The notes under the pieces: model-generated
Told to the model about the DNA's origin: nothing
Databases searched by the model: none
The model's input: only the letters and a program-made list of their open reading frames with translations
Shown: one piece after another, positions 8,978-29,859 of the stretch
Position numbering within the stretch: position 1 is the first letter of the stretch
Layout: every line of letters begins with the position of its first letter
Made by a program: the position numbers and the translations under genes
From: Actinophytocola gossypii
GTDB lineage: Bacteria; Actinomycetota; Actinomycetes; Mycobacteriales; Pseudonocardiaceae
Assembly: GCF_025165815.1 (NCBI RefSeq)
Contig: NZ_JAFFZE010000026.1
Span: forward strand, 1-64,000
Length of the DNA stretch: 64,000 nucleotides
Reading direction: 5' to 3'

Positions 8978-10505
8978 GGATGACGTGGTCCTTTCCAGAC
9001 AGGTCGGGTAGCGGCTGCCCCAGATAGGCCGCAGTGATTTCCTGGGCGAGTTCCCATGCCGTCTCCGCGGACGCGCGGTTCAGCTCCACCGGATCGGCAT
9101 GCGAGACCTTGTTCCGGTCGCCGGACAGGAACGTCAGCTGGGTCAGCAGCTTCGGCCGAACGGCGGCCAACTGCCGAAACGGGTGGTTCGCGCCGCCGTT
9201 GACGGCGGAGATCAACGCGGCGGCGAGCAGTGGGGGTGTCTTGGCATCCCGCGGCTTCCGCAGGGCGGAGCGGATCGCCGGTGGGTCGGCCACCCGGAGA
9301 TGCTCATGCTGGGAGTACAGCAGACCGATCGCACGGCAACATTCCCCCAGGTACGGGCGCAGCGGTTCGTCGATCCTCCGCATTGCCGCCTCGGTGACGG
9401 GATGATCGGCGACTATTTCCCGCAGGATTGACTCGTGCAGTTGCCACGAGTTGCGGACGACGTCACCGAGCACCGGAGATCGCCCGGAATGCAGGCGCAG
9501 GCGGCTGATGTCGCGCTCAAGCAGGACCAGCAGCTCGTAGCGATACCTGTGTTCCCGAAGTCTCGGCGTGAACCTTCGCTCGATCGACTCCCCGAGAGTC
9601 TGCCGTAGGGCGACATCCAGCTGGTCGTACTCGACGAGCAGCGCGTCGCTGCGCTGACCGACGAACTCGTCGATGCGCGTACCGAGCGCAGACCACCTCA
9701 GGGCGCGGGTGGCGACGAGCCGGCGTAGGTAGGTGCTCTGGCGTCCGGTGAACGGGCTGTGTGCCACCCAGCTGACGCTCTCCACCCCGTTCTCGGTTCG
9801 CCTGCGCAGCCGCAGCTCGACCGGGACGTAGACCGGCTGCCCGGTGTTGATCATCGAGACCCGGGTGACCACGCGGTCAGGCGGGGGCGAGGCCCACGCG
9901 CGTGCCTTCTCGCCGCGCCGGTTGACCTTCTCTCCGCGACCGACCGCTTCGACGACCTGTTCATGGCTCGGCGGCTCGACGGCCGCATGAACGTCGTCCG
10001 GCACCGGCACCGGCAACGCGCGGATGCTCATCGGCGCCCCAGGTGTTCGCAGCTGGACGGTGACGGCCAGCCGATGACGCCACTCAACCAGCGCGTACTC
10101 CGGCCGCGTCGTGGACGCCGGCCACAGCGTTCCGGTGAACGGGTCCTGGTAGACGAACGTGACGATGGTCCTGGTCGGGTCAAGGAACCCGTCCTTGAGC
10201 GCGGCCCGACCGGACAGTGTCACCGCCCCCCTTGCGTCCATATAGGACAATTGGCGGAGATCGGCGTGGACGAGGCCGACCAACCCCGGTTCGAGGCCGA
10301 GCAGGCGGCCGATGTCCGTCCGGTCGCGGACCCCGGCACGGGCGAGACCGAGGACGGCTCGCTGGAACATGTTGAGCCGCTGCTCGTGCACAAGTGGCGC
10401 GACCACCCGGTACTGCAGCGTCGGCCAGAGAATCCAGCGCCGGGCACCCTTCGGCTCGACCTGGTTGGGCAACAGCACTGGCGTCTCAGGTCCGAATGCC
10501 GGCAC
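8958..10505 (-). CDS. Unrecognised protein with winged-helix-like N-terminus and HEPN-like RNxxxH motif
   Basis: I do not recognise the family (515 residues, GTG start at 10505 inside the 3' end of the helicase gene). Residues about 50-105 look like a winged helix (VRDRTDIGRLLGLE...LRQLSYMDARGAVTLSGRAAL). The central part is basic and mixed. The C-terminal ~150 residues are helical and contain GDRNKVSHAD (R464 and H469), which fits the RX4-6H active site of HEPN ribonucleases, usually RNxxxH. HEPN proteins are common toxins in antiphage systems. The HEPN call is an inference from this motif and helical context only. Confidence 0.5.
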   Translation of the reverse strand: MPAFGPETPVLLPNQVEPKGARRWILWPTLQYRVVAPLVHEQRLNMFQRAVLGLARAGVRDRTDIGRLLGLEPGLVGLVHADLRQLSYMDARGAVTLSGRAALKDGFLDPTRTIVTFVYQDPFTGTLWPASTTRPEYALVEWRHRLAVTVQLRTPGAPMSIRALPVPVPDDVHAAVEPPSHEQVVEAVGRGEKVNRRGEKARAWASPPPDRVVTRVSMINTGQPVYVPVELRLRRRTENGVESVSWVAHSPFTGRQSTYLRRLVATRALRWSALGTRIDEFVGQRSDALLVEYDQLDVALRQTLGESIERRFTPRLREHRYRYELLVLLERDISRLRLHSGRSPVLGDVVRNSWQLHESILREIVADHPVTEAAMRRIDEPLRPYLGECCRAIGLLYSQHEHLRVADPPAIRSALRKPRDAKTPPLLAAALISAVNGGANHPFRQLAAVRPKLLTQLTFLSGDRNKVSHADPVELNRASAETAWELAQEITAAYLGQPLPDLSGKDHVIHGEEEE

Positions 10506-13500
10506 CGGACTCCCCCTCGCACAACTCCAGGAACGCGACCAGCCCTTCGCCCATCGACCGCGTCTCGCCGCGCTCGTTCTCCTGGACCGGCAGCGCCGAG
10601 CGGTCCGCCATCGCGGCGTCGCCGACCGCGATCAACAACCTGCGTTGCCTGCTCATCGCGACACACATCCGGCTGTCCCGCAACAGGTGGCCGTAGCGAC
10701 GAATCGCCTCGTCGACCCGCACCGGTCCCTCCGGCGGTTCGCTGCTGCGGGTGACCGACAGCAGCACGACGTCGAACTCCATGCCCTGGAACGCATCCAC
10801 CGTGCCGACCCGCAACCGCGGTCTGGGTTTCTCCTCCCTGGTCCACTGCAGCTTCCTCGCCGGCTCGAACTCGTCGTCGTCGTTCATCACGCCGAGCTCG
10901 GCACTGACCAGCTCCGCTTCGATGGCCTCCTTCTGCGCCTTGTAGAACGTGATCAGCCCGAAGGTCAACGTCTCCTCGGTGTCGAGCTCGACGAGCCGGG
11001 CCAGCTCCCGCACGAGCCGTTCCGCCTCGACGAGGCGCACCCTGCTGGTGCCCGACCGCTGTTCACCACCCGAGGCGAGCGGCACGTCGATCCACCCGGC
11101 GACCTTGCCCCGGTACGGCGACAGGTCGTGCGTCAGCGACTCGGTAGACGGGTGCGACCTGATGGCCTCTGGCCCGCCGTAGAACACCTCGCTGACGAAC
11201 CGGCCGAGGTCGGGGTGCATCCGGAACTGCGTGTCCAGCCGGATGGTGCGGATCTTCGCATCCTGCTCGCCGAACATGGTGAACCAGCGCTCGAACAGAC
11301 TCGTCGACAGGTCCGCGGTGTCCGCCTTCCTGTTCCGGAGCAGTTCGCGTTCCACCTTCTGCTCGAGCACGTGCGGCAGCTGCTTGTGGTCGCCGACCAG
11401 CACGATGCGGGTTCGCGCACAGGACAGCGGAATCATCAGGTCGAGCGGGTTCGCCCGGGCCGCCTCGTCGACGATGACCGTCTCGAACACCGGCAGCGGC
11501 GCGTCGAGCACCCGGTTCATCTCCATCGACTGTGCCTGCTGCACGGTCGATGCGAGTACCGAGTTGTACGCGCCGAGCGTCGACTCCACCTCGGCGAGGT
11601 CCTCGGCGAGATCGGCGCGGTAGGCGAGCAGCACGTCGTCCGCACTGTCGACGTGCTCGGTCGTGGCCTCCGCCACCGCCTCGGCGAGTTGGTCGAGCAG
11701 GGTCTCGACCTCCGGGTCGCGGGTCGGGCCGGTCAGGTTCAGCCCGCCGGAGCGCAGCCCGTCCAGCAGGGACAACCGGAGCTTCGCGAGATCGGCCACC
11801 AGTGGCATGCCGCCATCTGGCTCACTGTCTCCTGCCAGCTCGAGCAGCGCCTTGTCGTTCTCGTCGAGCAGCCCGAGCTCGGTGAGCCGCGAGAGGGCGA
11901 AGGCGGCCCTGGCCGGCCCGTCGTCGGCGAAGGCGACATCGATCGCCCTGATCGACCGGATGGTCGCGCTCGCCGCCGCCAGTTCCTTCGTGGTCAACGA
12001 ATGCCGGCCGCGAATCCTGCCGGTGATCGCCGAGCGCGCCCGCTCGATCCGGCCACGCAGCCGTGCGGGCAGGTCGTCCCCGGCGAGCCGCTTCGCGGTG
12101 TCCAGGATGCCGACGAGGTCGGCGTCGCCGACCGGTCGGTCACCGATGCTCGCCGCGAGTTGCCGAAGCTGGTTGACCTCCTCCCGGCGCAGCGCACTGC
12201 GCCGGTGCTCGGCGAGGTAGCCGTTGACCACGGCCAGCGTCTCGGTCCGCCATTCGCGCGCATGCTGGCGGCGGCGGGCGAGCTGCGAGTCGACCCTGGT
12301 CGGCGGGAGTCCCCGGTGCCTTGCCCGCCCGGCGACATTGTCCACCGCATCGTGCTGGAAGCTGGTGATCAGGGTGCGGTTCAGGGCCAACGCGTTATCC
12401 CCCAACAGGTCCAACGCACGCAGCAACGCGGTGATGAACTGCGTCTTCCCGGTTCCCGGCGGTCCCTGCACCAGCACGATGTCCGGTGTCCGCAACGCCA
12501 GCTTCAGCGCCTCCAGCTGGGAGCTCGTCGGATCCTTGCCACCGAACGCCTCCCGCACCGCAGCGGTCAGCACCCGGTCGTAGTTCCTGTCGACCCGCTG
12601 CCGCGCGTTCGGATCCGGTTGCCCCTCGAACAGCAACGCCAGCCCACGCATCTCCGCCTGCCCCGACCAGATGCGGTCACGTGCCTCGTCTCGCCGCCGC
12701 AACCGGGTGCGGTCACCGGAAAGCGACCGGAAAAGATAGCCGAACGGCGGCGGGTCGGGCCGGTCACCGTCCTGGGGCAGCGTGAGGTTGACCGTCCAGT
12801 TCAGCCGCGAGACGCTCTCCACGACACCTCGCGTGCCGGAGGACCTATTGCCCCCCGGCCCGGCAATCTCCGGCGGCGGATCGGCGGCAGCCTCCAGCTC
12901 CAGCTTTCCGTCGTAGGACGCCGCGGCACGAAGAAACTCGGCGGCCCGGTCACCCGGATGGAGCTGGAACTCGATGACCCCGTCGGCCTGAACCTGCCAT
13001 CCCCGGTACTGCCCCCACTTGAGGCGCAGAGCCTCCTCGATGATCGCGTCCCGCTCGATGTTGTTGTACTCGCTCCACATCTCCATGTACGGGCGGGCGC
13101 CGTCGGCGAGACCGGCCAGCGCGGCGCGCACCTTCTCACCAGCCAGCGCGGCGGAGGTCCGGTCGGTGAAGGTCAGCTCGACCTCACTGAGCCGGACGAA
13201 CTTGGGCAGCGGCCGGTTGTCGGTCATGCGCACGATGCACAGCCGGTCCTCGGTGATGACGACGTCGGCGACCCACCGAACGCCGTGCATCGTGAACGCC
13301 CCGAGACCTCCCCAGGGGTCGACGCTCGGCCCGCCACTGTGCACCAGGCGCTGCCGGCCTCGGCCCGGTGCGGCGGGCAGCGCGAACTGCTCGCGCAACC
13401 ACCGCGCGACGTCCTCGAACGGCGCTCCGTCGGACCGCAGCTCGGTGCGGACCAGCCTGGCGACCTCGTCGTCGACACTGACACTCAACGGCTCGAGCAA

Positions 13501-13839
13501 CGGCATACTGGCGAACCCGTGGCACTGGACCATCACCCGGATGTCGTCGTGTCCGGACTGCCTTGCCTGCGCGATCCAACTGGCCACAGCACGGCCCTGG
13601 GTAGCGAACAGGTTAAGCCGCGCCCGGTCGACCGCACGCGCCCGGAGCCGGCTACCGTCGGAATGGCGCAGCACGGCGTCATATCCCGCGCCCGGTCCCG
13701 CCTGGGTCACCGAGACCTCGTTCGGTTGGGCGAGTTTGGGTTTGCGAATCAGCGTCGTCAACCACGACGGCACCTGGGCCGAGGGCACGATGAACTCGAC
13801 CATGTCGACCTCGCCGACCTGAAGCTGGTTCGCGAACAT
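10486..13839 (-). CDS. SF1 (UPF1/DNA2-like) helicase
   Basis: About 1,117 residues from ATG 13839, chosen because it lies 4 nt after the kinase stop. The C-terminal 670 residues form an SF1B helicase: Walker A VQGPPGTGKTQFITALL (about 456-470), Ia (TLITSFQHDAVDNVA), Walker B VIVDEAARANPLDLM (about 785), motif III VLVGDHKQLPHVLE, motif IV FRMHPDLGRFVSEVFY, V GTVDAFQGMEFDVVLLS, VI CVAMSRQRRLL. An arginine-rich helical insertion separates motifs Ia and II. The N-terminal 430 residues are specific to this system and unrecognised. The gene is embedded in the overlapping operon between the kinase and the HEPN-motif protein. Confidence 0.88.
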   Translation of the reverse strand: MFANQLQVGEVDMVEFIVPSAQVPSWLTTLIRKPKLAQPNEVSVTQAGPGAGYDAVLRHSDGSRLRARAVDRARLNLFATQGRAVASWIAQARQSGHDDIRVMVQCHGFASMPLLEPLSVSVDDEVARLVRTELRSDGAPFEDVARWLREQFALPAAPGRGRQRLVHSGGPSVDPWGGLGAFTMHGVRWVADVVITEDRLCIVRMTDNRPLPKFVRLSEVELTFTDRTSAALAGEKVRAALAGLADGARPYMEMWSEYNNIERDAIIEEALRLKWGQYRGWQVQADGVIEFQLHPGDRAAEFLRAAASYDGKLELEAAADPPPEIAGPGGNRSSGTRGVVESVSRLNWTVNLTLPQDGDRPDPPPFGYLFRSLSGDRTRLRRRDEARDRIWSGQAEMRGLALLFEGQPDPNARQRVDRNYDRVLTAAVREAFGGKDPTSSQLEALKLALRTPDIVLVQGPPGTGKTQFITALLRALDLLGDNALALNRTLITSFQHDAVDNVAGRARHRGLPPTRVDSQLARRRQHAREWRTETLAVVNGYLAEHRRSALRREEVNQLRQLAASIGDRPVGDADLVGILDTAKRLAGDDLPARLRGRIERARSAITGRIRGRHSLTTKELAAASATIRSIRAIDVAFADDGPARAAFALSRLTELGLLDENDKALLELAGDSEPDGGMPLVADLAKLRLSLLDGLRSGGLNLTGPTRDPEVETLLDQLAEAVAEATTEHVDSADDVLLAYRADLAEDLAEVESTLGAYNSVLASTVQQAQSMEMNRVLDAPLPVFETVIVDEAARANPLDLMIPLSCARTRIVLVGDHKQLPHVLEQKVERELLRNRKADTADLSTSLFERWFTMFGEQDAKIRTIRLDTQFRMHPDLGRFVSEVFYGGPEAIRSHPSTESLTHDLSPYRGKVAGWIDVPLASGGEQRSGTSRVRLVEAERLVRELARLVELDTEETLTFGLITFYKAQKEAIEAELVSAELGVMNDDDEFEPARKLQWTREEKPRPRLRVGTVDAFQGMEFDVVLLSVTRSSEPPEGPVRVDEAIRRYGHLLRDSRMCVAMSRQRRLLIAVGDAAMADRSALPVQENERGETRSMGEGLVAFLELCEGESGAGIRT

Positions 13840-13843
13840 CACC

Positions 13844-15247
13844 TCACCTCGCCACCGGCTCGGTGGGCCGAATCTCGAGAACCCGGTGGTGATGCCGTTC
13901 GGGGCCGAAGTGGTAGCGCCACGGCGCCGCCAACTGCTCGACCTCCCTGCCGCCCGGGTGTACCTGCCTGCCGTTGCCACCACGTTCGGGCACCCGACGG
14001 ACGGTTCCGCCGAGATTGCGGACGACCACCTCGCCGCCGCCGTTCCACGACACCCGCAGGACGGCGGCGTCCGGCTCGACGTCTCCCCGGTGGACGAGTC
14101 GCGATCGAACGATGACATCGTGCCGTTGCTGCACTAGGACGAACCAGTGCGGATCGTCGATGTGTGGTTTCCCGACCATGTCCGGCGCGGGAAACTGATC
14201 GAGCACCTGAAGGGCGACGACCGGTGGCGGCGAGGCCTTGCACCATGGGCAGTGCTCGGCCGTGCCGTAGTAGGTCTGCGCGCACGACGGGCATACCACC
14301 GTGAGGTCCGCAGCCCGCCACAGCGCGTCCGCCCACTCGCCCGCCGCCGGACGCCGTCGCCAGTCCGCCAGACCGTCCTCGAAGTTGCGGGCGAACAGCT
14401 CGCGCAGCTTCGCGGTGAGGATGGATCGCGACGAGAAACCGCCCTGGGTGCTGCGGTTGCGGTCGTCCGTACGGTGCCCGACCCACGGCAGGAGACCACG
14501 TTGGACGTCGTCTTCGTACTCCACCGGGCCGTTCGCCACCAGGTCGCCAAGCAGCGGATGGTTGGCCATAAGCGTCTCGAAGGCGATGACCGCGAACGAG
14601 TACACGTCGCTGTGGACGGTGTTGCCGGTCTGGCCGCGCAGTACCTCCGGCGCGGTGTAGAACGGGGTCACCAGCCGCCGGCCGAGCACCGCGCTCTCCA
14701 GCTGGAGGTTGTCCGCGTCCACGAACCACACCTCGGCGTGGTCGACCGGTGCGGAGATCAGCACGTTGCCTGGTGACACGTCGCCGTAGACGATTCCCCT
14801 GCCGTGGAGCAGACCGAGCACCTCGGCACACCGCGCCAGCAGCCGTAACCGCCTGCGCAGCCCGCCACCCCGCGCGTACCACGGACCGAGGTCGCCCCTG
14901 GGCGGATCGCAGATCGTCCGCAACGCGACCATGTCCGCAAGCAGCGGCATCACGTACCCGGCGTGCGGCTCGGCCAGGCTCTCCTCCGGCCGGCTGATCG
15001 GTATGCCGTCCAGTGGCAGCCAGCTCAGCTTGGTTAGCCGGGCGGCCAGGTCGGCCGCGACGGTCGGGTCGTCGTCGACCTGGCACAACTTGACGGCGAG
15101 CCGGCCGAGGGTGGTACGAAACACCGTTCCCTCGCCACCCTGTCCCAACGGCTTGTCGAGCACCAGATCGTAGTTTCGCCCGCTCACGCCACGCACCCTC
15201 GCCGGCCATTTCGCCGGATCGTGCCCCGGCAATAGAAATCCGCTCAC
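13844..15247 (-). CDS. Serine/threonine kinase-like protein with zinc ribbon (TerY-associated type)
   Basis: A 467-residue protein with a kinase fold: glycine loop LGQGGEGTVF (34-43), ATP lysine in LAVKLC (K53), catalytic loop VYGDVSPGN (D156, N161, with Tyr-Gly in place of the usual His-Arg/Gly), and metal-binding VDADN (175-180). It probably keeps activity because Lys, catalytic Asp, Asn and the magnesium Asp are all there. A zinc ribbon CPSC...CPWC follows near residues 313-335, then a beta-rich C-terminal domain. The GTG start overlaps the vWA stop (GTGA). Kinases of this layout accompany TerY vWA proteins. Confidence 0.85.
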   Translation of the reverse strand: MSGFLLPGHDPAKWPARVRGVSGRNYDLVLDKPLGQGGEGTVFRTTLGRLAVKLCQVDDDPTVAADLAARLTKLSWLPLDGIPISRPEESLAEPHAGYVMPLLADMVALRTICDPPRGDLGPWYARGGGLRRRLRLLARCAEVLGLLHGRGIVYGDVSPGNVLISAPVDHAEVWFVDADNLQLESAVLGRRLVTPFYTAPEVLRGQTGNTVHSDVYSFAVIAFETLMANHPLLGDLVANGPVEYEDDVQRGLLPWVGHRTDDRNRSTQGGFSSRSILTAKLRELFARNFEDGLADWRRRPAAGEWADALWRAADLTVVCPSCAQTYYGTAEHCPWCKASPPPVVALQVLDQFPAPDMVGKPHIDDPHWFVLVQQRHDVIVRSRLVHRGDVEPDAAVLRVSWNGGGEVVVRNLGGTVRRVPERGGNGRQVHPGGREVEQLAAPWRYHFGPERHHHRVLEIRPTEPVAR

Positions 15248-15918
15248 GACATATCCAGGTCGGCCAGTCTCACCGCTTTCCCACCGGTGTGTTCATGCAG
15301 TTTGCCGGTGACCGTGGCGGTCACCCAGCGGAAGAGGCCAGGGATTTCATGCACCTGGTCGGCACGCATGACCGGCAGCCCAGGAGCGCCGAAGTCGGCG
15401 AGCACGCGAACCGCCTCCTCGGTCCGGTCCGCCCCGATTCCCACCGCCACCCGCAGCGCCTTGCTACCCCACCTGCTGGACACGAGCGCGTCGAACGGCT
15501 CAGTCCAGTCGTCCGTCGGAGCGCCGTCGGAAACCAGGATCAGCGTAGGCGGGAAGGACCTCACCGGAACGGCGTCCGAATCGTCGAGCACCGCACTGGC
15601 GACGTCGAACGCGGCGCCGAGCGGTGTTCTGCCTGCAGCCTCCATGTCCGACCAGGAAACCCGCGAAGCCGGCGTCATGGCTTGATGCAACCGCGCGGTC
15701 TGCCCACCGAACGCGATCACCGCCACGTGGATCTCCCCACGGGCCGAATCCTCGTCCGCGAACGCCCGCAGCATCGCCTCGACACTGCGGTTCAATAACG
15801 CGATCTTCTCCCCCTGCATACTGCCGCTCACGTCGGCGAGCACGATGATCGGCATCGGACGAGGCTGCCGCCGGCTCCGCGTCGACAGCAACGAGTCCTC
15901 TTCGGAAGAGCGTTCCAT
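15244..15918 (-). CDS. von Willebrand factor A domain protein (TerY-like), first gene of the operon
   Basis: A 224-residue vWA protein with the MIDAS motif DVSGSM (about residues 29-34), a downstream threonine (GRTPLG) and a MIDAS aspartate in LVSDGAPTDDW. Start at ATG 15918 is preferred because GGGGAGGA lies about 9 nt upstream; an earlier ATG at 15942 would put this ribosome site inside the coding region. TerY-type vWA proteins nucleate signalling complexes with a kinase and sometimes a PP2C phosphatase. No phosphatase gene is present here. Likely cytoplasmic; no signal peptide. Confidence 0.88.
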   Translation of the reverse strand: MERSSEEDSLLSTRSRRQPRPMPIIVLADVSGSMQGEKIALLNRSVEAMLRAFADEDSARGEIHVAVIAFGGQTARLHQAMTPASRVSWSDMEAAGRTPLGAAFDVASAVLDDSDAVPVRSFPPTLILVSDGAPTDDWTEPFDALVSSRWGSKALRVAVGIGADRTEEAVRVLADFGAPGLPVMRADQVHEIPGLFRWVTATVTGKLHEHTGGKAVRLADLDMS

Positions 15919-15963
15919 TTCGACAGGTCCTCCCCATGACATGCAGATACCGTAGCGGAGCCG

Positions 15964-18506: not shown

Positions 18507-18677
18507 TCAACGACGATTCGCCTGTTCCTCGGCATGGTCATCGATGATCCACCGCATCGCGCTGATGGCATTCGAGTAACGAAGATACCTTGGGTTCTGG
18601 TTCGACTTGGGTTCACAGCCCTCACGCATCCGACGCAGCTCGTCGATCATCTGCTGTAGTCGCTCGGTATCGGTCAT
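18507..18677 (-). CDS. Small hypothetical protein (56 residues)
   Basis: ATG at 18677 begins MTDTERLQQMIDELRRMREG, a charged helical protein ending EEQANRR. I do not recognise it. The predicted helices suggest a small regulator or antitoxin-like protein, but that is a guess. It lies downstream of the broken TIR gene on the same strand. Confidence 0.4.
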   Translation of the reverse strand: MTDTERLQQMIDELRRMREGCEPKSNQNPRYLRYSNAISAMRWIIDDHAEEQANRR

Positions 18678-18868
18678 GCGGGAAGCCTCGTCAACCACCA
18701 GGTCCAGAGCAACCGTCCTGTCATGCCGACGGGCGACATGTTCAGGGCGCGGTTGAGACTCAGCCAGCTGAAATCCATCACAGACAGTCCCACACGCCCG
18801 CGTAGTACCCTGCCCATATCGCCTGACCAGCCACACATGACGATGCGGTGCCCGAGGGTGCCGCGTCA

Positions 18869-19285
18869 GCCGGTGACGGCGTCGACCAGCCGCCGCAGCG
18901 GCTCGGCCTCGAACACTGGCTTCCGGAACCGGACGAAGCTGAACTGCCGGAGGAACAGGAGTTCGGGCGGCGGGTCGGCGACTCCCGGCAGCGGCATCGG
19001 CAGCACGCTGACCTGGTCGGCGACACACCGGTCGATAGAGGCGCACACCTCCAGCTCCTGCCACCGCCCGAGGCCGCGCTGGCCGACGAACACCACAAGT
19101 CGTGCGCACCATCCGGAGGGCCGACTGGATGCCGGTCTGGACCAGCGTGCCCGGCCGGAGCTGCTCGATGTCGAGCCACGGGTACCCGCCGTGGCGGCGC
19201 AGTACCTGGCACACGTCGAGCACTGCGGCCGCGTCCTCGGAGTGATAGGCGACGAAGGCGTCGAACTGGCTCGTTCCCGTGCATG
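18869..19285 (-). pseudogene. TIR-domain protein, frameshifted
   Basis: The N-terminal half SQFDAFVAYHSEDAAAVLDVC...GGYPWLDIEQLRPGTLVQTGIQSALRM is a clear TIR domain (box 1 FDAFVAYHSED; the WLD..QLRPG box 2). A shift near 19095 is required to continue CVVFVGQRGLGRWQELEVCASID...VLPMPLPGV...PEAEPLRRLVDAVTG. The putative NADase glutamate lies in RWQELE. TIR domains act as NAD-degrading effectors in defence. This copy cannot make one continuous protein, and its start is fused to hydrolase debris. Confidence 0.75.
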
Positions 19286-19822
19286 ACCAGCGCTGGCGGG
19301 GTTTCCGTGCCGGCGTGCCGCAGCGGCGAGTAACGCAGTGCGTGATCGTCATCGGCGAAGTGCCTCCTGCCGAGGCCGTCCGGGAACTCACCGGTCGTCC
19401 TCGTCAGCGGGTTCAACAGGACGAGGGCCGCGGGCCGGTGGCCGGGATCCGTGTTCGGCAGGTCGAGCACGGCCGTCGCCAGTGCCAGGTGTCCCCCGGC
19501 CGACCCCCAAGCGCGACGACGCGCTCGGTGTCGCCGCCGAGGTCCGGCGCCCGCTGGAAGACCGCGTTCATGGCGGCCACCGCGTCCTCGGTCGCAGCCA
19601 TGGGCCCTCGGTGCGGTACTCGACCAGGACGGTGAGCATGCCCAGCGCGTCGAGGCGCGCAGCCTGAGGACGGAACTGCCGCCAACTCCCCTTCACCCAG
19701 CCGCTGCCGTGGTAGAACACGGCCACGGGGACCGGCCGGCCATCCGGTACACGCGGCGCCGAGACATGAAGGAACAGCGTCCTGCCACCTACGGACGTGT
19801 AGGGGATCTTCCGCACCACAGC
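19280..19822 (-). pseudogene. Alpha/beta hydrolase (esterase) remnant
   Basis: Segments VAVFYHGSGWVKGSW (oxyanion region), TEDAVAAMNAVFQRAPDLGGDTERVVALGG (nucleophile elbow expected as GGSAGG but shifted), HLALATAVLDLPNTDP and ALVMHG occur in at least three frames. This is the order of an HSL-type hydrolase. It ends at the junction with the TIR remnant. Confidence 0.65.
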
Positions 19823-19860
19823 CGATCTTGCGCAGCTCGGCCCTAGACCAAGCGCGCGGA

Positions 19861-20165
19861 TCAGGGGTTCACGGCCGCGCAGTTGCCGTACGCGGGCGGC
19901 TTCGCGGGTGAGGTGGTCGCGTTCCGGCTGGCAGGTGGCGGCGCGGGCGGCCTCGACGTACAGGTCGGCGGCGTGGAGTGAGGTAGCCGGCGCGTTCGTG
20001 GAGGTATGCCGTCGCCGCGCTGTGGCGGGTAGGTCGGGGGCACGTCGGCCCGTGCGGCCAGGCCGGCGTGGGGTCCGTCGGTCTCGCCGACGGCCACTGC
20101 GCGGTTGAGGCACACGACCGGGCTGTCGGTGAGGAGGGGCAGTTCGTCGTACCCAGGGTCAACCT
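19861..20165 (-). pseudogene. C-terminal remnant of an ECF42-type sigma factor
   Basis: VCLNRAVAVGETDGPHAGLAA followed in other frames by fragments of the TPR-like tail (YLHERAGYL...; YVEAARAATCQPERDHLTREAARV) matches the C-terminal domain of RpoE-like ECF42 sigma factors. The sigma domains themselves are absent and the frame is broken. Confidence 0.55.
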
Positions 20166-20278
20166 AACGAGACGAGCCACTGGGTATCTGGCGGTGCGGA
20201 CTGGGTCGCAACTTCTTTGATTCCGCGATTTGGCCATGGGAGGCGGTCGTTGGGTGCAGCCCGCGTTAAGGTCGATTT

Positions 20279-23200
20279 ATGAACGATGGGGGCCCTGATC
20301 AGGTCGTCAACAGTGTGTCCGGTGATGTGTTCGGGCATCTGGTGCAGGCCGGGTCGATCTCCGGCGGCGTTCACTTTCATCTCGGGGCCCGTTGGTCCCC
20401 GTCTTCTCGTAGCCGTGCGGCCCAGAGGCCGTCTTGGCTGGCGCGTCTTTCCGACGGCACGGCCGGCGTCCTCCTGGATCCGCGTCGAGTGCTGGTCCTC
20501 GGATCGCCTGGGCAGGTGCGGGTCGACATGCCGTTCGGAGGCGTCGCGGGGCTGCGTGCGGCCGTGTTATCGCGCTGTGCGGCGGCGACGGTGTTGGAGC
20601 TGTCCGAACCTCTCGACGTCGTCGCCGCACCGCTGGCCGCGCCGGTTCTGTGCGATGGCCACGAGTTCACCGTGCACGGGTTTCGTGAGGCGGAGGTCAT
20701 CGCGGCGAGCGGCGTTCTCGGTGGTCTCGCCGGCCCCTGGTTCGCTGTCCGGGAATTCCAGGGGCCTTCTGGCGCAGGGTTCGCTGGGACACCGGTCTTC
20801 GACCGCGACGTCGACGCCGTAGTAGGTCTGCTCGGTGAGACCGGTGTGTACCCGCTTGCGAACCTGTTGGAACCGTGGCCGTGGCTGCGGGATCTGCTGG
20901 GGTGGCGTCTCGACCACGACCCGGCTCTGCGCACGCACTGGCTGCCGCGGGCTCGTGGCTCGGAGGTCGAGGCGGACACCGGATCGTGGTACTTCACCGG
21001 GCGGACCGAGGCCCGCCGGGAGCTGTGTGCCTGGCTCGAGGCCGGTCCACCGTTGCTGGTCGTCACCGGTGGTCCGGGAACCGGCAAGTCGGCGGTGCTC
21101 GCGCACGTGCTCGTCGGCGCGGACGCCCGGTGGGCACCGCGCGTTCCCACCGGTGGCCCGCGGCCCGCTCCGGGGACTGTCGACATCGCGCTACACCTGA
21201 AGGGCTTCGCCTTCGACGATGTTGTCGAGTGGCTCGCCGCACTGTCGGACGTGACCGCCGCCGATCCGGGCGAGTTGTTGGTCGCACTCCGGGACCGGCG
21301 TGAGACTGCGGGTCGGGCGGTGACGGTGCTGTGCGACGCGCTCGATGAGGCGGTCACGGCGGAGGAGTCGGTGCGGATCGCGCGGCTGCTGGCCGAGTTG
21401 GCCGTCGCGGGCGTGGCCCGCGTCGTGGTTGGTGTCCGCACGGCGCCGCCGGGCAGTCTGCGCGCCCGCGTCCACCGGGTGTGGGGACGCTCCACACCGG
21501 TACTGGACCTGGAGTCGGAGCGTTTTCTGCGACGCGAGGACATCGCCGAGTACGTCGCCAGCCGCCTCGCGGGTGACGACACCGAGGGCCGCTACCGCGA
21601 CGGGGCCGCCCTGCGCGACATCGCGGAAACCGTTGCCACGCGCGCCCGGCACAACTTCCTCGTCGCACAACTGACCAGTCGCTGGCTGCTGCTGCCCGGT
21701 ACACCGGTTGCCAGCGCGGACCTGGACGAGGCGCTGCCCACGACCGTCGGCGAGGCGATGGAGAAATACCTCGACGCGTTCGGACCCGACCGGGGCCTGG
21801 TCGAGCGTGTGCTCACCGCCCTGGCGTTCGCGAGGGGAAGCGGTCTGCCGCGCAACGATCTATGGGTGCGGCTCGCCGAGGCCCTCACGCCCGGCTACGA
21901 CGCGTCCGCCGCCGACCTTGCGCGCGTGTTCGACTCCGCCGCTTCGTACCTGATCGAGACCGAGACCCGTGTCGACGGCTCGCCGACCTACCGGCTCTAC
22001 CACGAGGTTCTCGATGAGCACCTGCGGGAGAACTGCGCCGTCGCCGCTCCGCACCGGGCGGTCGTCGAGACGTTGGTACGGACGGTTCCCGAGCAGGGCT
22101 CTCGGCGGAACTGGGAAGCGGCGGACTCCTACGTCCGTACGCAGCTCGCGGGCCATGCCGCTCGTGCCGGGGTGTTGGACGACCTGCTCACGGACGGCGG
22201 GTTCCTGGTGCACGCCGATCCGAGCCCGTTGCTCGCCGTCCTGCACAAGGCGGTGACGACGAACGGCCGCCTCGCGGTCGCCTGCTACCGGGCGTCCAGT
22301 GCCGACCACCGGAGTCTCGCTCCCAGCGCACGTGCGCAGGTGCTCGCGCTCGACGCCGCCCGGCTCGGAGCGCACGACCTGCGGGAACAGTTCGCACGCG
22401 AGTCGATCTGGCCGGTGACCTTCTCCACCGGAGCCCGCCAGCACGGCGCCCTGCTCGCCACCTTGCGGGCCGAGCAGGGCAACGTCAGCTCGATCGCGGC
22501 CGGCACGTTCGAGGGCCGGGCCATCGCGGTCAGCGGCAGCGAGGGTGGCCGAGTGCGTTTGTGGGACGTGGCGGATCAGCGCCCGATCGGCAGCGTGATC
22601 AGTGGCCTGCCGTGGTCGAGTTACCAGTCGCCAGCCCTCGCACTCACCACGCTCGACGGCCGTCTGATGGCGGTCGTCGGCGGGCGGAACCAGGTGCAGG
22701 TGTGGGACGTCCTCGCCGCGAGCATGGTCGCCGAGTGGACCACCGGTAAGAGCGACTCGATCACTGCCGTCGCGGTGGTCGAGCACGACGGGCGGGTGTT
22801 GGTCCTGGCCACCAGCTGGGAAGGGATGAACGCGTGGGACCTGCGCACACACCGCCTCGTCGCAGGCCCGGTGGGCAAGCGGCTGCAGGCCCTGGCGTTC
22901 GCTGAGCTGCACGGTGTTCCCGTCGTGGTCACCGGCGGGTGGACCGAGATACGGACATGGACTCTGGACGGTCTGCGCGAAACGGGCCAGGCGATGACCA
23001 GTGCGGAATCTGTGTTCCAGCTCGCGGTGACCGAGGTGGCGGGGCGGCCCGTTGCCATCACGGGGACGGGCGACGGCTCCGGCGCGGTGGAGCTCTGGGA
23101 CCTCTCCTTCCGCAGTCAGATCGGTGAGACCCGCACCGACCACGGGTGGTCGGTGTCCGGCATCGCCGTCACCGAGATCGCCGGCCGTCCCGTCGCGGTG

Positions 23201-24442
23201 ACGTCGTCCGGGCACAACTCGCCGGGACCGGACGACGAGGACACAACACTGCTCGTGTGGGATCTGCTCGAGTGGCGACGGGTCGGCAAACCGCTGGCCG
23301 GTCACACCCAAGGCACCCAGGCCGTGGCCGTCGTGGAGGTGGACGGCCGTCCGACAGCGGTGACCGGTGGGGGCTGGGACGGCACCGTTCGGCTCTGGGA
23401 CCTGACACTGGCTGAGCAGCAGGTCGGGGATCCCACCCCCGGGCACGGCATGCACATCCTGGAGATGGCCGTGCTCGACCGGGGCCCACACCGCCTCGCC
23501 GTCTCCGCCGCCCTCGACGACACCGCGTTCGTCTGGGACCTCCGAGGACACCGCGTAGTCGGACGCGCTCCCGTGAACTTCTGCAACTTCGTCGGTCTCG
23601 AGGAGTCCTTCGGAGAGGTTGTCGCGGTACTGGCGGGCATCGGGTTCGCGGAGGTGCACAACCTCGGTACCGGCTCGCTGATCACCCTCCAGCCCGCCAG
23701 CCGGCCCCTGCGGGCTTCCCGGCAGTACGCCTCCGGACCAGCGCACGTGTCGGCCGGAGCGATGGCGCGGTGGGGTGGGCGACCCGTGGTGGCCTTGGGG
23801 TCCTCCCACCGGGCGGTGCAGCTCCACGACCCCGTTTCGGGGAGGACCGTCGGACGCGCGATCGACGTGAGTGCCCCCGCCGCGACACCTGCGGACAAGG
23901 TCGACGCGACAGCGAACGTACCGGCGAGAATCGCGTTGCTCCTCGTGGCCGGCCGGCCGGCCGCCGTAGTGCTGAGTAGCCGGAGGGCGTCCGACGACGG
24001 CTTCACCGGGGCCGTCTGGGACCTCTTGGACGGCACGCTGATCGCCACGCTGGAACCACCGGCGTCGCAGGCGGCCACAACCTGCGTCGTCGGTGGTCTG
24101 ACCACGGTGATCACTGTGGGGGCGCAGGGAGTAATCCGGGTGTGGGACGCGGGCGCACAACGAACCCTGCGCACCATCGAGAGCGGTGGCGACCACATCC
24201 AGTACCTCGCGTCCGGCCTGCGTCGAGGGAGACCGGTCGTGCTCGCGGCGGGCTATCGCGGTCCTCTCGGCGTCTGGGACCTGGCCACCGGCGCGGCCGT
24301 GGACGAAATCAGGCTGCCCGACGCGTGCCGCGGGATCGCGCTCGGCGAGGACGGAGCGCTCGTCGTCGCCATCCAGAACGACGTCGCGGTCTTCGAGACC
24401 GAGATCCGCGGCGTCGTCCCGGACCTCGGTCCTCGGTCATGA
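20279..24442 (+). CDS. STAND NTPase with amyloid-like N-terminus, protease-like domain and WD40-like repeats
   Basis: A 1,387-residue protein. Residues 8-35 (VNSVSGDVFGHLVQAGSISG then GVHFH) form an actinobacterial motif resembling RHIM-like amyloid signalling sequences. Residues about 45-220 look like a trypsin-type domain, but the serine position reads GFAGTPVF instead of GxSGxPV and no catalytic His is evident, so it is probably inactive. The NACHT/STAND NTPase follows (TGGPGTGKSAVLAH at about 262-275; VTVLCDALDEA). From about 740 onward there are WD40-like blades (VRLWDV, VQVWDV, VELWDL, VRLWDL, IRVWDA). Proteins of this design bind a trigger through the repeats and oligomerise. Single gene, plus strand. 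Confidence 0.82.
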   Translation: MNDGGPDQVVNSVSGDVFGHLVQAGSISGGVHFHLGARWSPSSRSRAAQRPSWLARLSDGTAGVLLDPRRVLVLGSPGQVRVDMPFGGVAGLRAAVLSRCAAATVLELSEPLDVVAAPLAAPVLCDGHEFTVHGFREAEVIAASGVLGGLAGPWFAVREFQGPSGAGFAGTPVFDRDVDAVVGLLGETGVYPLANLLEPWPWLRDLLGWRLDHDPALRTHWLPRARGSEVEADTGSWYFTGRTEARRELCAWLEAGPPLLVVTGGPGTGKSAVLAHVLVGADARWAPRVPTGGPRPAPGTVDIALHLKGFAFDDVVEWLAALSDVTAADPGELLVALRDRRETAGRAVTVLCDALDEAVTAEESVRIARLLAELAVAGVARVVVGVRTAPPGSLRARVHRVWGRSTPVLDLESERFLRREDIAEYVASRLAGDDTEGRYRDGAALRDIAETVATRARHNFLVAQLTSRWLLLPGTPVASADLDEALPTTVGEAMEKYLDAFGPDRGLVERVLTALAFARGSGLPRNDLWVRLAEALTPGYDASAADLARVFDSAASYLIETETRVDGSPTYRLYHEVLDEHLRENCAVAAPHRAVVETLVRTVPEQGSRRNWEAADSYVRTQLAGHAARAGVLDDLLTDGGFLVHADPSPLLAVLHKAVTTNGRLAVACYRASSADHRSLAPSARAQVLALDAARLGAHDLREQFARESIWPVTFSTGARQHGALLATLRAEQGNVSSIAAGTFEGRAIAVSGSEGGRVRLWDVADQRPIGSVISGLPWSSYQSPALALTTLDGRLMAVVGGRNQVQVWDVLAASMVAEWTTGKSDSITAVAVVEHDGRVLVLATSWEGMNAWDLRTHRLVAGPVGKRLQALAFAELHGVPVVVTGGWTEIRTWTLDGLRETGQAMTSAESVFQLAVTEVAGRPVAITGTGDGSGAVELWDLSFRSQIGETRTDHGWSVSGIAVTEIAGRPVAVTSSGHNSPGPDDEDTTLLVWDLLEWRRVGKPLAGHTQGTQAVAVVEVDGRPTAVTGGGWDGTVRLWDLTLAEQQVGDPTPGHGMHILEMAVLDRGPHRLAVSAALDDTAFVWDLRGHRVVGRAPVNFCNFVGLEESFGEVVAVLAGIGFAEVHNLGTGSLITLQPASRPLRASRQYASGPAHVSAGAMARWGGRPVVALGSSHRAVQLHDPVSGRTVGRAIDVSAPAATPADKVDATANVPARIALLLVAGRPAAVVLSSRRASDDGFTGAVWDLLDGTLIATLEPPASQAATTCVVGGLTTVITVGAQGVIRVWDAGAQRTLRTIESGGDHIQYLASGLRRGRPVVLAAGYRGPLGVWDLATGAAVDEIRLPDACRGIALGEDGALVVAIQNDVAVFETEIRGVVPDLGPRS

Positions 24443-24768: not shown

Positions 24769-24852
24769 CGCTCCACCTCTCGATCAGGGTGTTGCGTCCA
24801 CCAGTTGAATCCACCGTTTCGCCGTCAACCGATCGCCGCTACAAAGGGACGC

Positions 24853-25116
24853 ATGGAACACCACTGCAGAGAGATCGGGTCGTGCGCGGGCGGCGCTCAG
24901 TTCGAGCTGGAGCTGCGCGGCCCAACAGGCAGGGTCTGTCTCATGGACGCCGACAACTATCAGGCGTACCTCGATGGTGACGAGTACGAGTTCCATGGCG
25001 GCTTCTGGGAGTCGAGTCCCGTCGGGCTGGAGATTCCCTACGACGGATTCTGGTATCTCGTGATCGACAGCAATCAAGGCGAGATCAAGTATTGGCTCGA
25101 CGGCCCGTTCGGGTGA
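24853..25116 (+). CDS. DUF1883-type small protein
   Basis: An 87-residue protein, ATG 24853 with AAGGGA about 6 nt upstream. The core VCLMDADNYQAYLDGDEYEFHGGFWESSPVGLEIPYDGFWYLVIDSNQG fits DUF1883: a compact beta domain with a conserved NYxxY, a GG turn and a P..G.W.VV.D strand. In other bacteria DUF1883 occurs fused or adjacent to TIR domains. A broken TIR gene lies 5.6 kb away with the STAND gene between, so a link is only suggestive. It is followed by a strong terminator. Confidence 0.7.
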   Translation: MEHHCREIGSCAGGAQFELELRGPTGRVCLMDADNYQAYLDGDEYEFHGGFWESSPVGLEIPYDGFWYLVIDSNQGEIKYWLDGPFG

Positions 25117-25608: not shown

Positions 25609-28600
25609 CTACTCGTTCTCTAGCTCGTCGTAGCGAGCAGCGAGGCCGCGGATCTCGTCGTCGAGCCAGTCGCGGGTGGCCTGGACCGCGTGACGCAGAT
25701 CGTCGTTCTCGTACTCGCCCGTCAAGGCTTCGTCCGCGGCGGCTCGATACCGGTTGAGCTCCTCAGACACCCCTCCGGACCAGCCCCAGTGCGACGGTCG
25801 CATCGCCGACGTGACCTGCTGCCGGATCGTGTCTGCGGTGGCCCGGTCCGCGAGCCTGGCCGCGCTGAACACGCGGTCTGCGAGGCGGGGATGGTAGAGC
25901 GGCCACCCCTCCACAACGTTCAACGCGCAAGCCAGAGCGGCGAGGGTCTTCGTGTCGACGGTCTCAATGATGTGATCGAGCGATCGAGCCTGGTTCTCGG
26001 TCATGCCATGAGACATGACCACTCCGGCGACGGAGTACGCCGCGACAGGGCTTCTCACGGCAGTCGTGACCAACCACCCCGCCAGCACATCCGAGTGCCG
26101 GTCGAAGGCGTCGGGGATGCCGTCGGAATCGTACGGCGCGGAGTCTCGGGTCTCGGCGAGCGCGGCCAGGCGATCGAGGACGAGTTCCGGGTGCGTGTCG
26201 GCAACACCACCTGCGATCTGCTGTACGAGGTAGTCCGACCATCCGCAGTGGTCGACCAGGTCCAGGACCGCGAGCGCGGCTTCTCGACCGAGTCCTTGCC
26301 CCCACTGCGCTCCGTCGTACTCGCTGGCGTGTTCCAGGAGCCGTTGGGTGGTCAGCGACGTGATCCCGGCCCGGAGCAGGTGAGGCGCCACCGCGGCGGG
26401 GTTCGCTGCCAGTAGCGGGTGAGCACCGAGGAGGAACCGATCCCGAAGCGCGGGGTCGGGGTCATTGCTTCCCTTCCGGTGGACGTCGCGGAACGTTCCG
26501 GGACGGGTCGCCCACTCCGCCATGACGAATGCGTCCGCCACTGCCTCCCTCACCTCGTGGCGGCGGTTGTCGAACCCCGCGAGCCACTCGGTGAAGGCGC
26601 TTTCGTCGCTGTCGGCCCATCGGCACAGCAGGGAGGGGAGGTGCTGGTCAAGGGGGCCGGGAGGGCCTGAGGCGACCTTGTGCACCAGATCGCTTGTGAG
26701 GGTGGGCCGGAGGTCGGCGAACCGGCACAGCAGGAGCGGAGTGACACCGCGGGCGGGCGCCGCGAGCCGCACCTGCCGGAGCAGGTCGTCGAGGTCGCGC
26801 ACGAGCCGTGCTAGGCCGCCGTCATCACCGACGGTCTCCACAACCCGGGCGGTGAGGGCTTCGACCTGGGCTTGCTTGTCTTCTCGTCTGCGGCGGGCCC
26901 TGCGCAGGTCATGTTCCCGACGTTGACGGTCGTCGAGACCGGCCGCGTCCGCCGCGCGCGCGAGGTCGGCAGCGTGGAGTTCCTCGATCGTGGGAACCGG
27001 GGCCGTCTTGCGTGTGCCGATCGAGTGGACTGTGTCCACGACGAGCTGGGCGAGGTCGTCACCGTGGTCGTCGAGCCGTGTCACCAGGACCAGCGCGGCA
27101 TGACGGAGGTGGAGCGACTTCGCCCGTTCCGCCGTCCACGCCACGGACTCGCGGACCAGCCTGCGGATCACCGGACTTCCGGTTCCGGAGGCTACCTCGG
27201 TGAGGGTCACGATGGTCGCGAGATCGTCGTCTTCCCATCCCAGCACCTCGTCGTCGAGCGGTGTGTCTCCGAACCCGCCCTGCGGTGGGCGGATCGCGAC
27301 AGCGAGAAGCCGGACGGCGTCACCCGCGCGACCGAGGTCGTCGCCCGTCGCCGCGGTCAGGAGGATCGTCCTGATGTGGTCCCGGACTGGCCGCGCCCAC
27401 GACGTGCTCACGTGATAAGTCCTGAAGCCGAGCTTCAGCCGGGCTTCCTGGACCGCTCGGTGGCCGTCCTTCTCCAGGAACGGTTTCACCGCGAACAACG
27501 GTGATTCCACCCCTTTGGGTTCGGCGAGCCACATCTCGACGCGGCCGAGGATGCGGTTCGGGAAGGAAGCGTGTCGTAGAGTGCCGAGATTCGCGAGCTC
27601 GTCGGTTATCACCCGCTCAGCACGGTTGGTGTTGCTGTTGGTGAACCGCGAGTCGAGGCACCGGAGCGACCACAGGGCGTCCAGCGCGGTCTCGAGGAGG
27701 TCGGGATCGGTTGTGGCGCACTTCCCGTACAGGTCGGCGAGTGTGCTCCGGACTCGTTGTGCCCTGAGGTCATCCGTCGCCGAGGTGTCCGGCCGGGCAC
27801 GCACGGCCTCGAGCACGTCGATCAGCAGGTGCGGTTGGGTGACAGCCAGTCCGCTGATCCTGCTGAGTGCTCTGGCAACGCCGTCCAGGTCGGCTTCCCC
27901 GATCTCGGCACGTACGCTCTCCCACACACTCGCGAAAACGGACGGACCGTCCTGCCGGCGCAACCGCCAGTCGAGTTCGGCGAGCTCGGTCACCAACCGG
28001 CCGGCGTGCCGCTCTCCGAACGACTGCCACAGCTGCCGCGCGAACCCGGTGTCGCGTCCGTCCGCCACAGACTCCTGCTCCAGGACGTAGTCGGCGAGCA
28101 CATCCGGGGTGACCTGTGTGCCACCGTGATGGGACACCAGAACGCCTCGGTCGCGCAGCTGCGCCACCCACCGGAGCACGACGACGGGATCGAGACCGCA
28201 GAACCGGGCGATGTGCGCGCGGACCTCCTCGTCGTCGTCGACGACGTTCCCGAGCGCTGCGTAGACCGCCAGCACCCGGCGTGCGGGCACGTCGATGTCG
28301 TCGAGCGCCAACTCCTGGTACCGAGTGAGGACCTGCCCGCGAAGACCGGCGTCCACAGCCAACGGGGCTGTCAGCTCCCCACGACGGATCAGGTGGGCCG
28401 CCACAACCGCCACCAGGGGACTGTGCACCGCCTGGTTCGCGAAGTACGCACGCCCGGTCCACGGGACATCGAGGCCCTCGGTCAGCGATGCGACCAGAGC
28501 CGTGGCCTCACGCTTCGACAATTCGCCCACGACCACCTCGCGCACGTCCGCAGGCGAGAACCGGGCGGTCGCGACCTGCGCGCGTACGACCTGTGCGCCG

Positions 28601-29514
28601 GACGGCCTGACACCGAGGACGAGCTGGGTGCCAGGCACGGTCTCTGCATAGGCGAGTAAGGGCGCGAGTGCCTCCGGGTCCTGGTGCGCGTCGTCCACGA
28701 CCACCACAGCCGGCGTCTGGGGTAGCTCACCCAGCGCGGCGCGGTCGAACCGGTAGCCGGCCGAGGCGAACAGGACCGGCACCTCCGGATGAGCCGCTTC
28801 GAACGCGGTCAGCGCCTCGACCAGCAGCCTGGTCTTCCCCCGACCACCGGGCCCGGTGACCAGGACGACCGCCGGTTGTGACTCGTCGACATCGAGGACC
28901 TCATCGAGGTCCCGCAACTCCGACTGCCTGCCCACCCGAAGTCCGCAGTCGTTGGGCACCCGGAGCGGGTTCTCCCGGGCCTCGGTGAACGCGGCGAGGC
29001 TCAGGAAGGCGTCCTCGCCCGGCACCTTGAGAAGCCGCTTCCGCGTGGCGCTCCCCCACGTCTGGTCGAGGACATCACGCTTCTTGTGCAGCGGGAGCTC
29101 GTCGAGCATCCGCCCCAGCCCTCGGCGATCCACCAAAGCCCAGTGCGGGTGCTTCGCGATCTCGGCCCTCACGGACGCAGACGCCTCACCGGAGCACACC
29201 AAGTAGTACTTGTCGGCCGGGTACGAGCAGTCGGACACGAACCCGCGCACGTCCGCCGGGGTCAGCTTGGCGTAGCGCTTGCACTGCCACGCAGCTGTCG
29301 CGCCGTCACTGAACTTCCCGACGAGATCGACCCCCTGCTGCCCGTCACCACGGCGTCCCCACCGCTCCACCTCGACGACCTTGCGGACCGGGCCGACGCA
29401 GAAGCGGTGCGCACTCAACAACCGGTCAGTGAAGTCCTCGAACGGCCCAGGCTCCAGCAACGGAGTGGGCAGCAACGTCGGCTCGGTATCCGGCCCGACA
29501 ACCCCATCGATCAT
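25609..29514 (-). CDS. Avs-like protein: Mrr-type nuclease fused to STAND NTPase
   Basis: About 1,301 residues from ATG 29514 (MIDGVVGPDTE). An N-terminal PD-(D/E)XK domain has GVDLVGKF...AAWQCKRY (about residues 60-77), the D...QxK signature of Mrr endonucleases. A STAND-type NTPase follows with Walker A VTGPGGRGKTRLLVEAL (about 212-228) and Walker B AVVVVDDAHQD. A long helical C-terminal region with no repeat I can name makes up the remaining ~800 residues. This is the layout of antiviral STAND (Avs) proteins, where the C-terminus recognises a phage protein and the nuclease then degrades DNA. Single gene. The frame remains open 21 codons upstream, but that part is low-complexity. Confidence 0.78.
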   Translation of the reverse strand: MIDGVVGPDTEPTLLPTPLLEPGPFEDFTDRLLSAHRFCVGPVRKVVEVERWGRRGDGQQGVDLVGKFSDGATAAWQCKRYAKLTPADVRGFVSDCSYPADKYYLVCSGEASASVRAEIAKHPHWALVDRRGLGRMLDELPLHKKRDVLDQTWGSATRKRLLKVPGEDAFLSLAAFTEARENPLRVPNDCGLRVGRQSELRDLDEVLDVDESQPAVVLVTGPGGRGKTRLLVEALTAFEAAHPEVPVLFASAGYRFDRAALGELPQTPAVVVVDDAHQDPEALAPLLAYAETVPGTQLVLGVRPSGAQVVRAQVATARFSPADVREVVVGELSKREATALVASLTEGLDVPWTGRAYFANQAVHSPLVAVVAAHLIRRGELTAPLAVDAGLRGQVLTRYQELALDDIDVPARRVLAVYAALGNVVDDDEEVRAHIARFCGLDPVVVLRWVAQLRDRGVLVSHHGGTQVTPDVLADYVLEQESVADGRDTGFARQLWQSFGERHAGRLVTELAELDWRLRRQDGPSVFASVWESVRAEIGEADLDGVARALSRISGLAVTQPHLLIDVLEAVRARPDTSATDDLRAQRVRSTLADLYGKCATTDPDLLETALDALWSLRCLDSRFTNSNTNRAERVITDELANLGTLRHASFPNRILGRVEMWLAEPKGVESPLFAVKPFLEKDGHRAVQEARLKLGFRTYHVSTSWARPVRDHIRTILLTAATGDDLGRAGDAVRLLAVAIRPPQGGFGDTPLDDEVLGWEDDDLATIVTLTEVASGTGSPVIRRLVRESVAWTAERAKSLHLRHAALVLVTRLDDHGDDLAQLVVDTVHSIGTRKTAPVPTIEELHAADLARAADAAGLDDRQRREHDLRRARRRREDKQAQVEALTARVVETVGDDGGLARLVRDLDDLLRQVRLAAPARGVTPLLLCRFADLRPTLTSDLVHKVASGPPGPLDQHLPSLLCRWADSDESAFTEWLAGFDNRRHEVREAVADAFVMAEWATRPGTFRDVHRKGSNDPDPALRDRFLLGAHPLLAANPAAVAPHLLRAGITSLTTQRLLEHASEYDGAQWGQGLGREAALAVLDLVDHCGWSDYLVQQIAGGVADTHPELVLDRLAALAETRDSAPYDSDGIPDAFDRHSDVLAGWLVTTAVRSPVAAYSVAGVVMSHGMTENQARSLDHIIETVDTKTLAALACALNVVEGWPLYHPRLADRVFSAARLADRATADTIRQQVTSAMRPSHWGWSGGVSEELNRYRAAADEALTGEYENDDLRHAVQATRDWLDDEIRGLAARYDELENE

Positions 29515-29859
29515 CGCGCAAGCATAAGCAGACGCACCGACGGAACCAGATGACGACGTGGTGCCGGTGCCGGTCAAACCGTCGATCCCGGCGGTGAGGC
29601 GTTCGCCAGCGTCGTCATCGCTCGGGTGTCGTCGTTGACGTTCTGCTCCTCGTTAACGTGGCCCGAGGAGTTCGAGCAGGATCAGCCCCTGCCGCAGCGC
29701 GGCCTCCGACCGCGAGCCGATCGGCGGTGATGCTGTTGGCGACGACCTTGTCGCCGTAGATCAGTTGCCCGATCAGGTCGGGCGGCACTAGGGGCGCGGT
29801 GGCGATGGTAACCGCTTCGGACGGGGCCGAAGTGGTGCCGGAACGGTCGGTGGTGGTGA
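29515..29859. other. Gap with degenerate sequence
   Basis: No intact gene. Multiple short frames with in-frame stops; probably part of the same decayed prophage-like block as 29860-30218. Confidence 0.4.

Follow-up and report, generated by a model that had tools for sequence, protein, structure and literature searches.

A receptor gene in the window, by which we mean the whole analysed stretch of 64,000 nucleotides from Actinophytocola gossypii (contig NZ_JAFFZE010000026.1), encodes a protein in which a short N-terminal motif stands in front of a trypsin-like domain that has lost its catalytic triad. The same motif ends a small conserved protein encoded on another contig of the genome, and among the trypsin-STAND proteins compared the presence of the motif was associated with a broken triad. 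The reading that we regard as rather probable is that a shared effector acting in trans has taken over the output from the receptor's own protease, by templating between motifs that is probably of the amyloid kind. If true, an immune receptor would have changed its output, the built-in enzyme being retired once a short motif plugged the protein into a common effector.

Architecture of the receptor

The open reading frame, its coordinates and the motif were as originally predicted: the gene starts with the ATG at 20279, it encodes 1387 amino acids, and the motif covers residues 8-36 (Table 1). The Walker A (GGPGTGKS) and Walker B (TVLCDALDE) motifs of the NTPase could be read from the sequence, and the nSTAND1 match (26.1 bits, E 8.5e-6) lies slightly below the Pfam cut-off of 27.1. 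The C-terminal part matched Pfam WD40 with E 2e-10, and no high-identity tandem repeats were found in it; it is probably the ligand-sensing part of the receptor. The features of STAND/NLR-like proteins found were the P-loop ATPase with Walker A and B motifs and the C-terminal repeats, and as judged from its sequence the receptor is an NLR-like (STAND-WD40) immune-type protein of a soil bacterium.

Table 1. Features of the receptor gene and their positions in the window.
Feature	Position	Strand	Evidence
Whole receptor gene, 1387 aa (motif, pseudo-trypsin, STAND NTPase, WD40)	20279..24442	+	ORF; Pfam nSTAND1/AAA_16 and WD40
N-terminal signalling-type motif QVVNSVSGDVFGHLVQAGSISGGVHFHLG, residues 8-36	20300..20386	+	Profile E 5e-15 in own genome; kept in 164/297 family genomes
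Trypsin-like domain, predicted catalytically dead, residues 43-207	20405..20899	+	Alignment with active homologues; AF2; PDB fold matches
Connector with the THWLPRARGSE region, junction of pseudo-protease and NTPase	20900..20989	+	Conserved; common to active-protease homologues (alignments)
STAND NTPase, residues ~238-460	20990..21658	+	Pfam nSTAND1, AAA_16, NPHP3_N; Walker motifs
C-terminal WD40 beta-propeller repeats, residues about 716-1376	22424..24406	+	Pfam WD40 and several propeller models, matching residues 723-1376

The trypsin-like domain

The absence of the catalytic serine had been noticed originally, which understated the damage, as all three residues of the triad are gone in the alignment with homologues. 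The serine loop reads GFAGTPVF, with Ala169 at the Ser site, where homologues have GFSGAPV. The Asp site is occupied by Ala102 (CAAATVLEL vs the usual GDxAVLRL, as in GDLAVLRL), and the His site is lost or deleted, RVLVLGS standing where homologues have TC(A/S)HV. With His, Asp and Ser all replaced or deleted, the domain is predicted to be catalytically dead.

A structural model, which had been suggested as a check on the original prediction, gave a confident trypsin-type barrel over about residues 43-206 (AF2; pLDDT about 90-95), and the alignment showed no intact triad. In a Foldseek search against the PDB the domain matched MucD, HtrA1, DegS and Rv3671c (E about 1e-6 to 1e-5). The double-barrel fold of the S1/PA clan is present and the His-Asp-Ser triad absent. 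No Pfam trypsin match was found for the window receptor; its homologue L007 matches Trypsin_2 at 7e-14.

Between the window receptor and its closest homologue, L066, dN/dS of the trypsin-like domain was near 0.3, and the ratio of trypsin-domain dN to NTPase dN in this closest dead pair was 2.5 (both Nei-Gojobori). The same dN ratio was 0.7-1.1 in active pairs and 1.06-1.27 in more distant dead pairs. Taken together, the raised dN ratio of the closest dead pair and its dN/dS near 0.3 indicate a constraint on the pseudo-protease that is relaxed yet not absent, and the domain is best described as being under relaxed purifying selection.

A dead protease is by itself not new, because inactive trypsin domains have been reported earlier in vWA-linked effector positions (PMC7159879). 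Trypsin-STAND and CARD-NLR systems of the LypABC type likewise link a trypsin-like domain with a STAND/NLR-type ATPase, and there the catalytic serines of LypA and LypC are required for lysis (PMC13236601), which is what makes the dead domain of the window receptor notable. The systems differ in that the window protease is dead and has the motif in front of it, and in that LypA and LypB are separate proteins.

The pseudo-protease might instead serve as a sensor that binds peptides or phage proteins in its former active-site cleft and controls the ATPase. The confidently retained trypsin fold (AF2) and the continuing purifying selection would agree with such a role, and a peptide-binding function has been proposed for the inactive trypsin domains of related conflict systems (PMC7159879). 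We consider it unlikely, however, as in the dead lineage the domain changes more quickly than the NTPase, the serine-loop region is wholly deleted in one motif-bearing homologue (L015), and the usual position of the sensor is the WD40 part. Under the preferred reading, a transfer of the output in trans, the trypsin-like domain would have been the built-in output of the ancestor, its catalysis lost after the gain of the motif, and would now be a folded spacer or a binding domain.

The N-terminal motif

A homologue search with receptor residues 1-244 across 297 genomes of the same family returned, besides trypsin-STAND relatives, many unrelated STAND proteins that match residues 5-43 only. A motif profile of 18 rows, seeded from matches to the N-terminus of the window receptor itself, found the receptor (E 5e-15) and one other strong match (E 2.5e-8) in the own genome of 7.4 Mb, which places the motif well beyond chance expectation. 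With the same profile the motif was present in 164 of the 297 genomes, with up to 25 occurrences per genome. Its carriers in these genomes are mostly diverse STAND proteins with the motif at their front; among the loci checked it lies nearly always within 25 amino acids of the start codon, and in a few at the protein end. The consensus is xVxNxVSGxVxGxxVQAGxIxGGVHxH, and the motif of the window receptor is G/Q/H-rich. A degenerate but strict DNA pattern for the motif had a single match in the own genome, the window receptor, and missed the second carrier because the pattern was too narrow. No meaningful PDB match to the motif profile was found, nor did the letter string of the motif occur in the literature searched. 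The distribution across unrelated proteins marks the motif as a real, mobile and modular element, predicted to be of signalling type.

Identity of the motif with RHIM or BASS3 was rejected, as Pfam RHIM (PF12721) matched none of the 18 motif rows and none of 22 hub proteins (see below), while as a positive control it matched three of six canonical BASS3/Bell proteins (E 2e-5). A known BASS3 peptide is VDLRDAKGVQVGDGNVQINRF (PMC8086366); in a profile alignment the motif and BASS3 ends had four columns in common only, a comparison that covered BASS3 among the ten published BASS families and sets the motif apart from it by profile. The RHIM core has been described as G-phi-Q-phi-G (PMC7885112) and is absent from the motif consensus, in which Q is followed by Ala and the second position ahead of it is not Gly. 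The motif resembles RHIM and the fungal PP motif in its hydrophobic-Q-x-G core (VQAG) and N/G-rich flanks, and differs from them in the lack of the G-phi-Q-phi-G core and of a Pfam RHIM match. The original prediction of a prion-like motif that activates a partner carrying the same motif is supported as far as the mobile module and the matching motif on an effector-like protein are concerned, whereas the label RHIM-like, taken as family membership, has to be dropped, the VQxG tetrad alone being in common. As a separate observation, the Bell-like protein L170 (G477) has VEGVVVGNQNQVRMHF in its C-terminal region where the BASS3 motif would be expected, and this may be a further class of motif.

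The candidate partner protein

A scan of the genome for the same motif, likewise suggested originally, gave the receptor N-terminus and the C-terminus of a 112-aa protein as the two strong matches. The latter, here called the hub protein (L034, G000:C47:120237-120575), starts with MPEPVLISIAAALAGKAVSGLYEFVKRKF and ends with GGVNNQISGTVSGKVVQARDIRGDISF-stop. It had been stated that no cognate effector lies in the neighbourhood, which was right, the candidate sitting on another contig; the suggestion that the signalling target is encoded elsewhere gains support from the C-terminal motif of this protein. The motif profiles of receptor and hub align over 25 columns with 98% probability (profile-profile alignment).

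Homologues of the hub protein were found in 156 of the 297 family genomes, 127 of these having exactly one match, and they share the MPEP start and the position of the motif at the very end. In the AF2 model residues 4-86 form five helices and the motif is disordered. No match was found for the hub fold in the PDB, and no consistent match for the protein in Pfam and NCBIfam. Comparison of the hub domain with BASS3-carrying Bell domains gave an hhalign probability of 45-50% and a score of 27.6, vs at most 16.9 in 40 column shuffles; this weak similarity is suggestive only. The 112-aa helical protein is probably the partner switched on by the receptor.

The motif could also act as a homotypic docking tag that is not amyloid, gathering the hub and other motif proteins with no self-propagating fibre. 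This is the logic of the EAD adaptors (PMC8195603), and the conservation of the motif at either terminus of diverse proteins, as well as the lack of a Pfam RHIM match, would suit it. EAD-based conflict systems (Kaur et al., PMC7159879, PMC8195603) are also alike in having a homotypic adaptor in receptor and effector, and inactive trypsin domains are known from them. EADs, however, are folded and mostly helical, whereas the present motif is short, with only ~27 residues, predicted to be disordered alone, and has no Pfam EAD match; its conserved G, N, Q and V correspond to the composition of amyloid signalling motifs already known and not to that of a folded adaptor. A docking tag of this kind therefore appears rather improbable.

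Genomic linkage of motif proteins and hub

Other motif proteins were present in 119 of 147 genomes carrying the hub, vs 32 of 150 without it (Fisher p 6e-26, uncorrected for phylogeny and genome size). In the window genome the receptor and hub genes are unlinked, on different contigs, and no receptor was found near the hub gene in most neighbourhoods fetched, that of the window genome included. Receptor-effector adjacency of the Bell type, absent from the window genome, is present on a Nocardia plasmid and nearly so in four relatives. The plasmid (NZ_CP109567.1) carries, 172 bp upstream of the gene for a hub homologue (ending ...ALQARDIQGGINF), a gene for a STAND-TPR protein that has the motif at its N-terminus (beginning ...DVVQARDVHGGIHFH). 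The hub gene of G107 is convergent with a gene for a NACHT protein, and in G282, G009 and G182 genes of the NB-ARC type lie about 5 kb from the hub gene. In G285 a motif-bearing receptor was present and the hub protein was not found.

In G094, a member of the same genus, a SEFIR/TIR gene ending in the motif overlaps the hub gene (L145 8328-8963); its product may represent a second kind of effector that uses this motif. The gene after the hub in the window genome (L136 8161-9957, G000:C47) codes for a component of a ternary conflict system, in which a cyclase-like N-terminus is combined with VMAP-M0 and VMAP-C. A fixed VMAP-hub operon was rejected, the pairing being kept in the own genome and G066 only. 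Because the hub is unlinked from the receptor and adjoins a VMAP gene in the window genome, it may also serve other systems.

Motif presence and loss of the triad

The triad was read in homologues from the family, the class and a scan of genomic contigs, the last of which gave 8 trypsin-STAND loci. All six distinct motif-bearing trypsin-STAND proteins had a broken triad, with the His/Asp/Ser patterns -/A/A in the window receptor, S/A/T in L004, P/D/T in L005, R/D/T in L068 and H/N/S in L006; L015 had D/D and a deleted serine-loop region. The motif-less trypsin-STAND proteins, about 40, were all intact wherever the site was present. The association between motif and broken triad was significant in the close subfamily (Fisher p 2e-4) and overall (1e-7).

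In the tree the six motif-bearing receptors and L009 form one clade (93/100) with two label changes, and because the six fall in one clade the correlation does not represent six independent events. The sole motif-less clade member, L009, has an intact triad. The sequence upstream of L009 was free of the motif in every frame, and in its genome the motif profile had no match and the hub search no confident one. Searching two further whole genera did not enlarge the motif-bearing clade. The gain of the motif may have been a single event, with the correlation resting on few independent changes.

Motif and dead protease could also have nothing to do with each other, the correlation stemming from one loss by chance within a single clade, as the one clade with its two label changes would allow. 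This seems fairly unlikely to us, since the members differ in the residues that break their triads, and the only clade member lacking the motif is the one that has stayed intact. As the six share the clade with the intact, motif-less L009, one gain of the motif followed by piecemeal decay of the triad is the economical reading.

Proposed mechanism

By analogy with NLR signalosomes (PMC7889193), binding of a ligand to the WD40 part would lead to ATP-driven oligomerisation of the STAND ATPase. The clustered N-terminal motifs of the receptor could then template the C-terminal motif of the separate hub protein of about 112 residues, and its N-terminal hydrophobic helical bundle would be released onto the membrane to execute the response. 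This response would most likely be membrane damage with cell death or dormancy, as with Bell/HeLo effectors.

The arrangement resembles the bacterial Bell-BASS/NLR amyloid signalosomes (Dyrka et al. 2020, as described in PMC7889193 and PMC8086366) in its short motif at the NLR N-terminus and in the small helical protein with the same motif at the C-terminus and a hydrophobic N-terminal helix. It differs from them in that the motif is not BASS3 by profile and the hub domain only weakly similar to Bell, and in that the pair is usually unlinked, with many receptors to one hub. As a tentative generalization, possible though short of probable, Pseudonocardiaceae-type actinobacteria may have a hub-and-spoke network in which many different STAND receptors, tagged with a motif that is neither RHIM nor BASS3, share one conserved small helical effector, encoded as a rule by a single unlinked gene; receptors that gain the motif would lose their protease output. 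The many orphan bacterial NLRs that bear a motif tag would then have, in the hub protein, a concrete effector candidate that is widespread and not represented in Pfam or NCBIfam.

Neighbouring genes in the window

The divergent neighbour of the receptor (18507-20237, minus strand) includes a TIR_2 fragment (E 4e-5) and hydrolase-like sequence upstream. It looks like a frameshifted TIR gene, its reading frame seeming to break, and the motif was not found in it in any frame. Directly downstream of the receptor lies a gene for a 103-aa DUF1883 protein (24805-25116, plus strand). At 10486-15942 (minus strand) genes for a helicase that strongly matches PADLOC MkoA (E 2e-80), for a protein kinase-like product and for a vWA protein stand in a row, probably a further defence-type cluster. 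Beside the receptor, at 25609-29577 (minus strand), lies the gene of a second NLR-like defence candidate, a protein of 1322 aa in which an Mrr-type nuclease is joined to a STAND NTPase.
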